Positions 347-3,665 of a DNA stretch of 41,760 bases are shown piece by piece. How positions within the stretch are numbered: the stretch's first letter is position 1; every line of letters starts with the position of its first letter. The notes under the pieces are model-generated. The model did no database searches. It had not been told where the DNA came from and worked only from the letters and a program-made list of their open reading frames with translations. Source of the stretch: an uncultured Chlorobiaceae bacterium (GTDB lineage Bacteria; Bacteroidota; Chlorobiia; Chlorobiales; Chlorobiaceae); contig CAIXLG010000016.1 in NCBI GenBank assembly GCA_903920215.1, forward strand, positions 1 through 41,760, given 5' to 3'. The translations under genes were made by a program, and so were the position numbers.

Positions 347-415
347 ATGAGCATAGCGAACCTTAATAGCCTTTTGCTTACCCTGGGCCTGCTACTCCGG
401 GCTTTATGGCTCTAA
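347..415 (+). CDS. leuL: Leucine-rich leader peptide of the leuA attenuator
   Basis: A 22-codon ORF begins ATG AGC ATA GCG AAC and ends TGG CTC TAA. It encodes MSIANLNSLLL followed by TLGLLLRALWL, so 10 of 22 residues are leucine, including runs of three. It uses five of the six leucine codons (CTT, TTG, CTG, CTA, CTC) plus TTA. It lies 115 bp before leuA and just ahead of a terminator hairpin, the arrangement of leu leader peptides in enterobacteria. No strong Shine-Dalgarno precedes the ATG. An in-frame TTG at 317, preceded by AAGG, could start a longer 32-residue version. The peptide itself probably has no function beyond making translation sensitive to charged leucyl-tRNA. The gene name is used by analogy. 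Confidence 0.8.
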   Translation: MSIANLNSLLLTLGLLLRALWL

Positions 416-495
416 GGGGAGGTGCGTTTTAGTTCGTTTTTATCGCCAGAAAGAACATTGTTAAAGCCGCCAGCCCCTCAGGGTTGGTGGCTTTT
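387..495 (+). promoter_or_regulatory. Leucine-responsive transcription attenuator
   Basis: Four mutually exclusive segments can be traced. Segment 1, GCCTG (387-391, inside leucine codons), pairs with segment 2, CGGGC (398-402). Segment 2 in its longer form GGCTTTA (400-406) is a perfect 7-bp complement of TAAAGCC (462-468), segment 3. Segment 3 is also the 5' arm of the terminator, whose 3' arm is segment 4 (481-492). A ribosome stalled on the leucine codons at 371-379 would cover segment 1, free segment 2 and favour the 2:3 antiterminator, letting leuA be transcribed. When leucine is plentiful the ribosome moves on and 3:4 forms. The pairings are seen in the sequence; the mechanism is inferred from the enterobacterial leu operon. 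Confidence 0.72.
465..495 (+). terminator. Attenuator terminator before leuA
   Basis: AGCCGCCAGCCC (465-476) pairs with GGGTTGGTGGCT (481-492) through a four-base loop, with two G-U pairs and no mismatch. It is followed by TTTT and then a T-rich stretch to about 503. It lies 35 bp before the leuA start, inside the transcript leader, as expected for an attenuator. Confidence 0.8.
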
Positions 496-2328: not shown

Positions 2329-2766
2329 ATGAATGAAGCCTATACCTTGATCAAAGCGGCCGGACTCAAGCTCACGCCGCGTCGTCAAGAGATGGTTGCA
2401 TTGTTTTTGCACACACAAAAGCCGCTTTCGCCATTGGAGGTTCAGGATCATCTGAAACTTCACTTCAGGCAGTGTGGACTGCCCGGTGTGTATCGCAATC
2501 TTGAAACCCTTGTCGATTGCGGGGTGTTGTTCCGGCTTGCAGGTTTTGCCCGTGAGCGAAGCTATGCTCTTTGCTGCCGGCCTGTTCATGAACATCATCA
2601 TCACCACCATATTATCTGTTCATCATGTGGAAAGGTTGGTCAAGTTGATGTATGCGGTTATCATGAGGGAATGATGATTAAAGGTTTCCGGCTTGTGAGC
2701 CATGTGGTGCAACTGAGTGGTATCTGCGACTCCTGTGTATCGAAAGAAAAGGAGAATTTCAGTTGA
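2329..2766 (+). CDS. zur: Fur-family zinc uptake regulator (Zur-like)
   Basis: This 145-residue protein is a cytoplasmic metal-sensing repressor of the Fur family. The N-terminal half is a winged helix (GLKLTPRRQEMVALF, then PGVYRNLETLVDCGVLFRL with the typical 'YR-L--L-D-G' recognition region). The C-terminal half carries a His-rich metal site (H87 and H89-H94) and two CxxC pairs, C97/C100 and C133/C136, which bind structural zinc in this family. The family match alone does not separate Fur, Zur and PerR. The zinc assignment rests on its being first in an operon with znuA, znuC and znuB, its stop codon overlapping the znuA start. It probably represses this operon when zinc is sufficient. Confidence 0.85.
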   Translation: MNEAYTLIKAAGLKLTPRRQEMVALFLHTQKPLSPLEVQDHLKLHFRQCGLPGVYRNLETLVDCGVLFRLAGFARERSYALCCRPVHEHHHHHHIICSSCGKVGQVDVCGYHEGMMIKGFRLVSHVVQLSGICDSCVSKEKENFS

Positions 2767-3665
2767 AAAGCATAGTATACAAATCAGTTTTGGCGTATAC
2801 GCTCGTGGCGATCCTTTTCCTGAGCGGGTGTATGCATCAGACCGAAACAACAAAACTTCAGGTTGTGTGCTCTATTGAACCGCTCTCCTACTTTGTCAAA
2901 CAGATTGGAGGCAGCCATGTTGACGTATCGGTTATGGTTCCTCCAGGCGGAAATCCCCATAGTTATGAGCCTTCACCCAGGCAGATGGTCCGGCTTGGCA
3001 GCTCAGCACTGTTCATTAAGGTCGGATCAGGGGTAGAGTTTGAGCTTGACTGGATGCAGCGCTTTTTGTCTCTGAACAGCAAGCTGAAGGTCTGTAATGC
3101 AGTTGAGGGTGTTCGCCTTCTTCCTGTAAAGAAAGATGAAGCGCATGAAACTTCTCAGGAAGAGAGTCATCATCACGGACGATACGACCCGCACTACTGG
3201 CTTTCTCCGTCGAATGGAATTATAATTGCCAACAATGTCGAACACGCCCTTGCTTCAGCAGACCCGATCCACAAGAACGACTACCAGGAAAACAGGGAAA
3301 AACTTGTAACTGAACTGCAGTCACTTAACCGGGAAATTCAGAGGCAGCTTGTTACAGTAAGGAATAGACGTTTTCTGGTTTTTCATCCTGCATGGGGATA
3401 TTATGCAACGGCTTTCGGTCTTGAACAGATTGCAGTTGAGGAGGAGGGAAAGACGCTCACTCCCAGGCAGATGCAGCGTGTCATTGATAAAGCCAAAGTA
3501 AATAATATCAAGGTGGTGTTTGTTTCACCACAATTCAGCAGATCCCAAGCTGAAACTATTGCCAGAGAAATTGGTGGGGTAACGAGGAGTGTTGATCCTC
3601 TTGCGGGTGATTATCAGGAGAATCTGCGACGTGCCACGAAAACATTCATCGAGAGTATGCAATGA
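2763..3665 (+). CDS. znuA: Zinc ABC transporter substrate-binding lipoprotein
   Basis: ZnuA captures zinc outside the inner membrane and hands it to the ZnuBC permease. The N-terminus is a lipoprotein signal with lipobox LSGC (Cys23), so it is membrane anchored. The cluster A-I family ligands are visible: His66 in NPHSYE, His144 in DPHYWL, and a His in FHPAWGYY around residue 212. A short His-rich loop (H136-H138), typical of zinc rather than manganese binders, precedes DPHYWL. Translation starts at TTG 2763, with AAGGAG (2749-2754) eight bases upstream. This TTG overlaps the zur stop, so the two are translationally coupled. The 3' end overlaps znuC by ATGA. Confidence 0.9.
   Translation: MKSIVYKSVLAYTLVAILFLSGCMHQTETTKLQVVCSIEPLSYFVKQIGGSHVDVSVMVPPGGNPHSYEPSPRQMVRLGSSALFIKVGSGVEFELDWMQRFLSLNSKLKVCNAVEGVRLLPVKKDEAHETSQEESHHHGRYDPHYWLSPSNGIIIANNVEHALASADPIHKNDYQENREKLVTELQSLNREIQRQLVTVRNRRFLVFHPAWGYYATAFGLEQIAVEEEGKTLTPRQMQRVIDKAKVNNIKVVFVSPQFSRSQAETIAREIGGVTRSVDPLAGDYQENLRRATKTFIESMQ

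Follow-up and report, generated by a model that had tools for sequence, protein, structure and literature searches.

The leucine attenuator of enterobacteria (leuL) combines a Leu-rich leader, in which the rare codon CUA occurs, with three helices that exclude one another and a terminator located before leuA. The actinobacterial LEU element is described as a pseudoknot in which the run of Leu codons and the Shine-Dalgarno box of leuA pair to form the base stem (PMC1262725). The Lactococcus Leu/Phe leader (RF01743) and an attenuator peptide of Staphylococcus aureus (PMC5794164) are described as Leu-rich, associated with branched-chain synthesis and non-proteobacterial. According to a 2010 survey, leader-peptide systems were known only in Proteobacteria and Actinobacteria before the Firmicutes cases it reported (PMC2965389). 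The Leu leader motif is listed in a 2013 survey whose genomes included 11 of Chlorobiales; that survey considers that such attenuators may be gammaproteobacterial in origin (PMC3766115). A study of reinitiation at leader peptides mentions Chlorobia solely as a group represented by too few genomes (PMC4833913). The structured RNAs reported for Chlorobi are Chlorobi-1, Chlorobi-RRM, Lnt and SAM-Chlorobi, the last of which precedes metK and ahcY; leuA is not mentioned there (PMC2864571). A first-pass annotation of the DNA analyzed here proposed an attenuator of a kind it did not know as described for leuA of Chlorobi, and our full-text literature search, with subscription papers mostly outside its coverage, likewise found no report of a leucine attenuator in this phylum.

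The leuA locus and its leader peptide in Chlorobiaceae

The window, that is the whole stretch of 41,760 nucleotides that was analyzed, is contig G000:C16 of a Chlorobiaceae genome whose nearest named relatives are Chlorobium, together with uncultured Chlorobiaceae MAGs. Near its start a leader ORF (347–415) is followed by an intrinsic terminator (463–494) and then by leuA (531–2213). The first-pass annotation had read the region as a 22-codon ORF with 10 Leu ahead of an intrinsic terminator just before leuA, and all of these elements are present in the sequence. The features of the gene and its leader are as follows.

276–303, + strand: promoter-like TTGCAA (276–281) ... TATTTT (298–303), about 43 nt before the leader ATG; putative, from a pattern in relatives
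347–415, + strand: leader peptide ORF, 22 codons with 10 Leu, MSIANLNSLLLTLGLLLRALWL followed by the stop; Leu columns conserved across relatives, no Shine-Dalgarno sequence before the ORF
362–412, + strand: control Leu codons (10 Leu, rare CTA and TTA included), recognized by Leu content, CTA enrichment and synonymous codon change
531–2213, + strand: leuA, 2-isopropylmalate synthase of 560 aa, TIGR00970/PRK03739 type; NCBIfam NF002991 and TIGR00970 above cut-off

The product of this leuA belongs to TIGR00970 ("leuA_yeast"), the "yeast-type" 2-isopropylmalate synthase. The same genome also encodes a citramalate synthase and, within an ilv-leu operon, a LeuA of the bacterial type, and a second, bacterial-type LeuA is present in most Chlorobiaceae genomes. 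Upstream of ilvD in that ilv-leu operon (G000:C92, L116, minus strand, approximately 1200–1020), a short Ile/Val/Leu-rich ORF with the terminal sequence MIGIFVTVVISSLSVAVL and a stop ends about 117 nt before the gene, and an Ile/Val-rich ORF ends 108–119 nt before ilvD in many of 30 relatives; it is a candidate ilv leader peptide. On the 3' side of leuA, the window carries genes for a Fur/Zur-like regulator and, after it, a zinc/manganese ABC substrate-binding protein (2329–3665; family scores below cut-offs).

From 86 Chlorobiaceae genomes that were searched, 84 leuA upstream regions could be compared, and the full Leu-rich leader with its terminator was found in 78 of them. One further locus (L079) is cut by a contig end and keeps the 3' half, as seen by a covariance-model match, and in another (L025) the upstream region is too short to tell whether a leader is present. 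The leader is missing from four loci (L035, L039, L054 and L056), three of which keep the terminator while one has neither; it is thus dispensable in these genomes, and the four natural losses are ready-made controls. L056 comes from a Chlorobium chlorochromatii MAG. In four loci a tRNA-Asn (GTT) gene lies directly 5' of the leader or of the bare terminator (L038:302–374, L039:173–245, L042:621–693 and L054:763–835), so leuA may be co-transcribed with the tRNA there. Within the family, the covariance model built from the alignment gave one match per genome, at leuA, except for two weak matches elsewhere (G063 C141 and G084 C3; L113 and L114), which turned out to be Leu-rich coding starts and not leaders. 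Matches away from leuA in the genome of the window were at chance level. The long (yeast-type) LeuA was not found in the other families of the class, and there is therefore no leader to compare in them. A TTGCxx-N-TATxTT pattern occurs at a similar distance in 63 of the 78 relatives, mostly 33–55 nt before the leader ATG. A Shine-Dalgarno sequence is missing before the leader ORF in 63 of the 78 loci and is present before leuA.

Ten Leu in 22 codons has a probability of 2e-5 for that one frame at a background of 10.5% Leu. Over the 78 leaders, Leu, the amino acid made by the downstream pathway, accounts for 574 of 2062 residues (27.8%), compared with 9.9% in long ORFs from ten Chlorobiaceae regions. 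CUA, which is the least used Leu codon of these genomes or close to it, makes up 11.8% versus 2.1% of Leu codons in genus 1, that of the window (p 8e-17, about 6-fold enriched), and 26.2% versus 1.1% in genus 2, the Chlorobaculum type (p 1e-27, about 24-fold enriched), p-values that overstate independence because the leaders are related. Such an enrichment of a rare codon would be a gain for a sensor of Leu-tRNA supply. In the 28-codon form of the peptide, columns 9, 10, 13, 15, 16 and 17 hold Leu in 26–31 of 32 sequences with codons that change synonymously; outside the Leu columns the peptide drifts, with 186 nonsynonymous versus 82 synonymous codon changes between nearest neighbors. In most relatives the frame continues through LRGGAF to a stop that is the homologue of 429–431. 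The leaders of the clade of the window (L001, L004–L006, L008) stop at 413–415 because the spacer is 1 nt shorter than in most relatives. With either stop, the 5' arm of the antiterminator described below lies under the ribosome as it terminates.

Three helices and the proposed switch

Comparison of the leaders points to three long-range helices and one small hairpin, which are made of the following segments.

355–361, + strand: segment 1 (A), 5' arm of the protector, within codons 3–5 and just 5' of the Leu codons; pairs with 432–438, with covariation
399–412, + strand: small hairpin just before the antiterminator arm, a possible RNA polymerase pause hairpin (putative role); recognized by folding z
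412–445, + strand: segment 2 (C+D), 5' arm of the antiterminator, whose D part (432–438) is also the 3' arm of the protector; the 27-pair antiterminator covaries
449–481, + strand: segment 3, 3' arm of the antiterminator, which shares bases with the 5' arm of the terminator; cognate pairing and covariation
463–494, + strand: intrinsic terminator hairpin (463–476/481–494) with T-run 492–495; 14 bp, about −25 kcal/mol, covaries

The stem of the terminator has 14 bp and its loop 4 nt, and the T-run (TTTTGTCATTTT) is imperfect. Compared with dinucleotide shuffles, the complete leader is more stably folded (z = −3.8); compared with synonymous-codon shuffles, leader-wide folding is only mildly biased (mean z −0.85 over the leaders, +0.29 for the window). 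Two tests were applied to the helices. When the duplex energy of each arm with its own partner was compared with that obtained with partners from other genomes (2000 permutations), cognate pairing was preferred for the terminator (z −8.2), the antiterminator (z −5.8) and the protector (z −4.1), and no permutation was as good (0/2000). Three control pairings, including both helices of the first-pass annotation, gave z values of +0.6 to +1.7 and thus no cognate preference. When pair counts in the alignment (cells paired and covariation score) were compared with those of 500 shuffles, the covariation score was 0.157 against 0.129 shuffled for the terminator and 0.214 against 0.169 for the 27 pairs of the antiterminator (412–445/449–481), each reached in 0 of 500 shuffles, as was that of the protector (355–361/432–438). 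All three helices exceed every one of the 500 shuffles in both measures, with an advantage on cells paired that comes from structures partly derived from these sequences. The shuffle and permutation controls ignore relatedness, and the control pairings stay flat on the same alignment and tree. The arrangement is that of an attenuator: the terminator lies between the ORF and leuA, the antiterminator excludes the terminator and the protector sequesters segment 2. A tentative pairing of the Leu codon run with segment 2 (372–398/409–428), weakly present in the consensus fold, showed no cognate preference. The hairpin at 399–412 has a mean z of −1.0 over the 78 leaders compared with +0.35 for a control stretch, is also present in leaders from two other phyla and may be an RNA polymerase pause signal.

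We consider it very probable, on sequence comparison, that this leader controls leuA by ribosome-mediated transcription attenuation, with charged tRNA-Leu as the signal sensed. The comparison supports the ORF, the enrichment of Leu and CUA, and three mutually exclusive helices with covariation; from these we infer translation of the leader ORF, termination in the cell and the response to leucine. With leucine plentiful, the ribosome would cross the Leu codons, reach the stop (413–415 here, the 429–431 homologue in most relatives) and cover segment 2. No antiterminator could then form, the terminator at 463–494 would fold and transcription would end before leuA. With Leu-tRNA scarce, the ribosome would wait on the Leu codons and, since segment 1 lies immediately 5' of them, mask segment 1, leaving segments 2 and 3 free. 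These would form the antiterminator 412–445/449–481, which consumes the 5' arm of the terminator, and leuA would be transcribed. If no ribosome were loaded, the protector 355–361/432–438 would hold segment 2 and termination would follow. In folding simulations with the ribosome on a middle Leu codon, the nascent antiterminator region had a mean of −23.6 kcal/mol and was below −12 in 78 of 78 leaders. Moving the ribosome to the stop codon raised the mean to −2.6 kcal/mol and 0 of 78 fell below −12, a weak folding that is partly trivial because less free RNA folds less. The terminator folds with a mean of −19.6 kcal/mol over the 78 leaders; the antiterminator rivals it in every leader and is positioned exactly under the terminating ribosome.

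The comparison therefore gives good support to the proposal that leuA of a green sulfur bacterium is under ribosome-mediated leucine attenuation, and other explanations have to be weighed against it. One is the same type of attenuator with the helices originally drawn, in which 400–406/462–468 would be the 2:3 antiterminator and segment 2 would be held through the Leu codons at 387–391. The 7-bp match 400–406/462–468 does exist in the window, where the best duplex reaches −9.7 kcal/mol, but it is not conserved: across the 78 leaders it has z +1.7, 1924 of 2000 permutations lie at or below the observed value, and its covariation score equals the shuffled mean (0.118 versus 0.119). Its cells are paired in 65% of cases against 77% for the 27-pair antiterminator, which is far stronger and, unlike the 7-bp helix, conserved. 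The 1:2 pairing with 387–391 is not conserved either (z = +0.7 for cognate pairing). An alignment of leuA upstream regions in relatives, which the annotation had suggested as a check, upheld the Leu-rich ORF and the covarying terminator stem and gave no covariation above the shuffled level for 400–406/462–468. We regard this set of helices as highly improbable. The classical 1:2, 2:3 and 3:4 alternatives that the annotation described keep their logic and their terminator, with 412–445/449–481 and 355–361/432–438 in place of its 2:3 and 1:2 pairings; as judged by covariation, the logic would be the classical one with these corrected segments.

If the ORF were incidental, a T-box or a riboswitch for leucine or for an intermediate of the pathway would share the use of a terminator/antiterminator pair, which riboswitches, T-boxes and attenuators have in common. 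Such an element would, however, leave unexplained the enrichment of Leu and rare CUA codons and the position of the stop codon on the antiterminator arm, and the leader has no large aptamer-like conserved domain, its conserved parts being the arms. No Rfam family matched the window at the gathering score, with chance matches only up to E = 10 in 250–540; the T-box family (RF00230) specifically gave no match at the gathering score in the window and none up to E = 10 in 250–540. We find this explanation scarcely credible. The ORF could instead be a translational uORF or encode a small peptide with a function of its own, in which case the terminator would be that of the upstream gene. Translation can be controlled by small ORFs, and the Shine-Dalgarno sequence before leuA, missing before the leader, would fit. 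This is also most unlikely: in 63 of 78 loci the leader is separated from the upstream gene by the promoter-like element, segment 2 covaries with the 5' arm of the terminator, and the peptide drifts apart from its Leu residues.

Related leaders in Omnitrophota and Elusimicrobiota

The leucine attenuator proposed here has counterparts in other phyla. The nearest relatives of this LeuA outside Chlorobiaceae (57–62% identical) come mostly from Omnitrophota and Elusimicrobiota MAGs, and their leuA genes are also preceded by Leu-rich leaders. Upstream of leuA, the Chlorobiaceae model scores 35.7 bits in L189 (leader MKQKLTNLNLLLLNLLLQLKTAADGVF, stop), 40.9 bits in L190 (MKLNNLLPGLLLSLLR, stop, within a 21-codon frame) and 22.7 bits in L193 (MSTRTIQTQQLFGFSSLLRLRR, stop); L250 has the Leu-rich leader MNGNSIQHNNRLTGKLLLLSLR (stop) before leuA. 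The protector is kept despite change in both arms, the cognate set being the best of 720 permutations for six leaders from three phyla. No such leader was found within 400 nt of the Omnitrophota leuA of L194, and the gammaproteobacterial LeuA relatives L200–L204 have no Leu-rich ORF with terminator upstream. In L189 (Elusimicrobia), approximately 580 nt with a repeated AGGAGAGAAAAATGATTACAGG unit (266–848) separate the terminator of the leader from leuA. In the LeuA tree the Chlorobiaceae proteins are nested among those of Omnitrophota and Elusimicrobiota; the branches are long, and the key forks are moderately supported (92/95, 81/79, 88/86). Since the tree groups these phyla with Chlorobiaceae, leader and gene probably moved together, and transfer of the two between phyla is the simplest reading. 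By sequence, the element extends beyond Chlorobi.

A model restricted to the antiterminator and terminator gave further strong matches in Omnitrophota and a few in Elusimicrobiota. Many of them carry a different peptide, such as MNQSTNQKHVTCLIMLFPAWRKPAREGVF (stop), before a protein of about 80 aa of unknown family or before EamA transporters. In the Omnitrophota loci L238, L240, L242–L245, L247–L249 and L251–L256, the peptide consensus is K(H/M)xxxC...(F/S)PxWRK...GVF-stop, and these WRK-type leaders mostly lie just behind a TTGACA-type promoter with a very short 5' UTR. Because the first antiterminator-terminator model included L238, all WRK-type leaders were kept out of a third model; with it the WRK loci, whose preselection with an earlier model is a bias, score 30–56 bits with one outlier at 26, and chance matches in about 190 kb reach at most 14.8. 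The protector of the WRK-type leaders covaries (0/5000 permutations). L270 and L271 (Elusimicrobiota) have the same RNA module, with leaders ending in GRGAF-stop, before a methyltransferase-like gene.

These matches are consistent with one attenuator family across Chlorobiaceae, Omnitrophota and Elusimicrobiota, having a constant RNA chassis and exchangeable sensing peptides, of which the leucine version moved with leuA; in our judgment the chances for and against this reading are about even. The chassis would consist of a protector (first codons with post-stop bases), an antiterminator, a terminator and a leader usually ending in GVF-stop or GAF-stop. The peptides would be a Leu run before leuA and H...C...PxWRK...GVF-stop in many Omnitrophota.

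Comparison with known leucine leaders

The proposed switch appears to be a common mechanism in a place where it had not been reported, with unusually good comparative documentation and a surprising spread across phyla, its function being deduced from sequence. It offers a family-wide, testable account of how leucine synthesis may be tuned in green sulfur bacteria, in a phylum for which our search found no description of a leader-peptide attenuator. That this leader also stands before leuA in two further phyla, known mostly from metagenomes, makes a rare, readable case of a regulatory RNA traveling with its gene, in which the helices were kept while the sequence turned over between phyla.

Chlorobi-1, Chlorobi-RRM, Lnt and SAM-Chlorobi come from the same phylum, but none of them matches the window at the gathering score. 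The Lactococcus leader RF01743 and the S. aureus peptide (PMC5794164) belong to another phylum, and the window has no Rfam match. The actinobacterial LEU element, as described in PMC1262725, resembles the present leader in having an upstream ORF with a Leu codon run before leuA, and differs from it in that an intrinsic terminator stands between leader and gene here. The enterobacterial family Leu_leader (RF00512) gave no match at the gathering score in the window and none up to E = 10 in 250–540. The leader nevertheless resembles leuL in its Leu-rich peptide, its rare CUA codons, its three exclusive helices and its terminator before leuA. In contrast to leuL, the peptide and RNA sequences are different, the gene is a lone "yeast"-type leuA instead of leuABCD, the leader has no Shine-Dalgarno sequence, and the protector is formed by the first codons and the bases after the stop.
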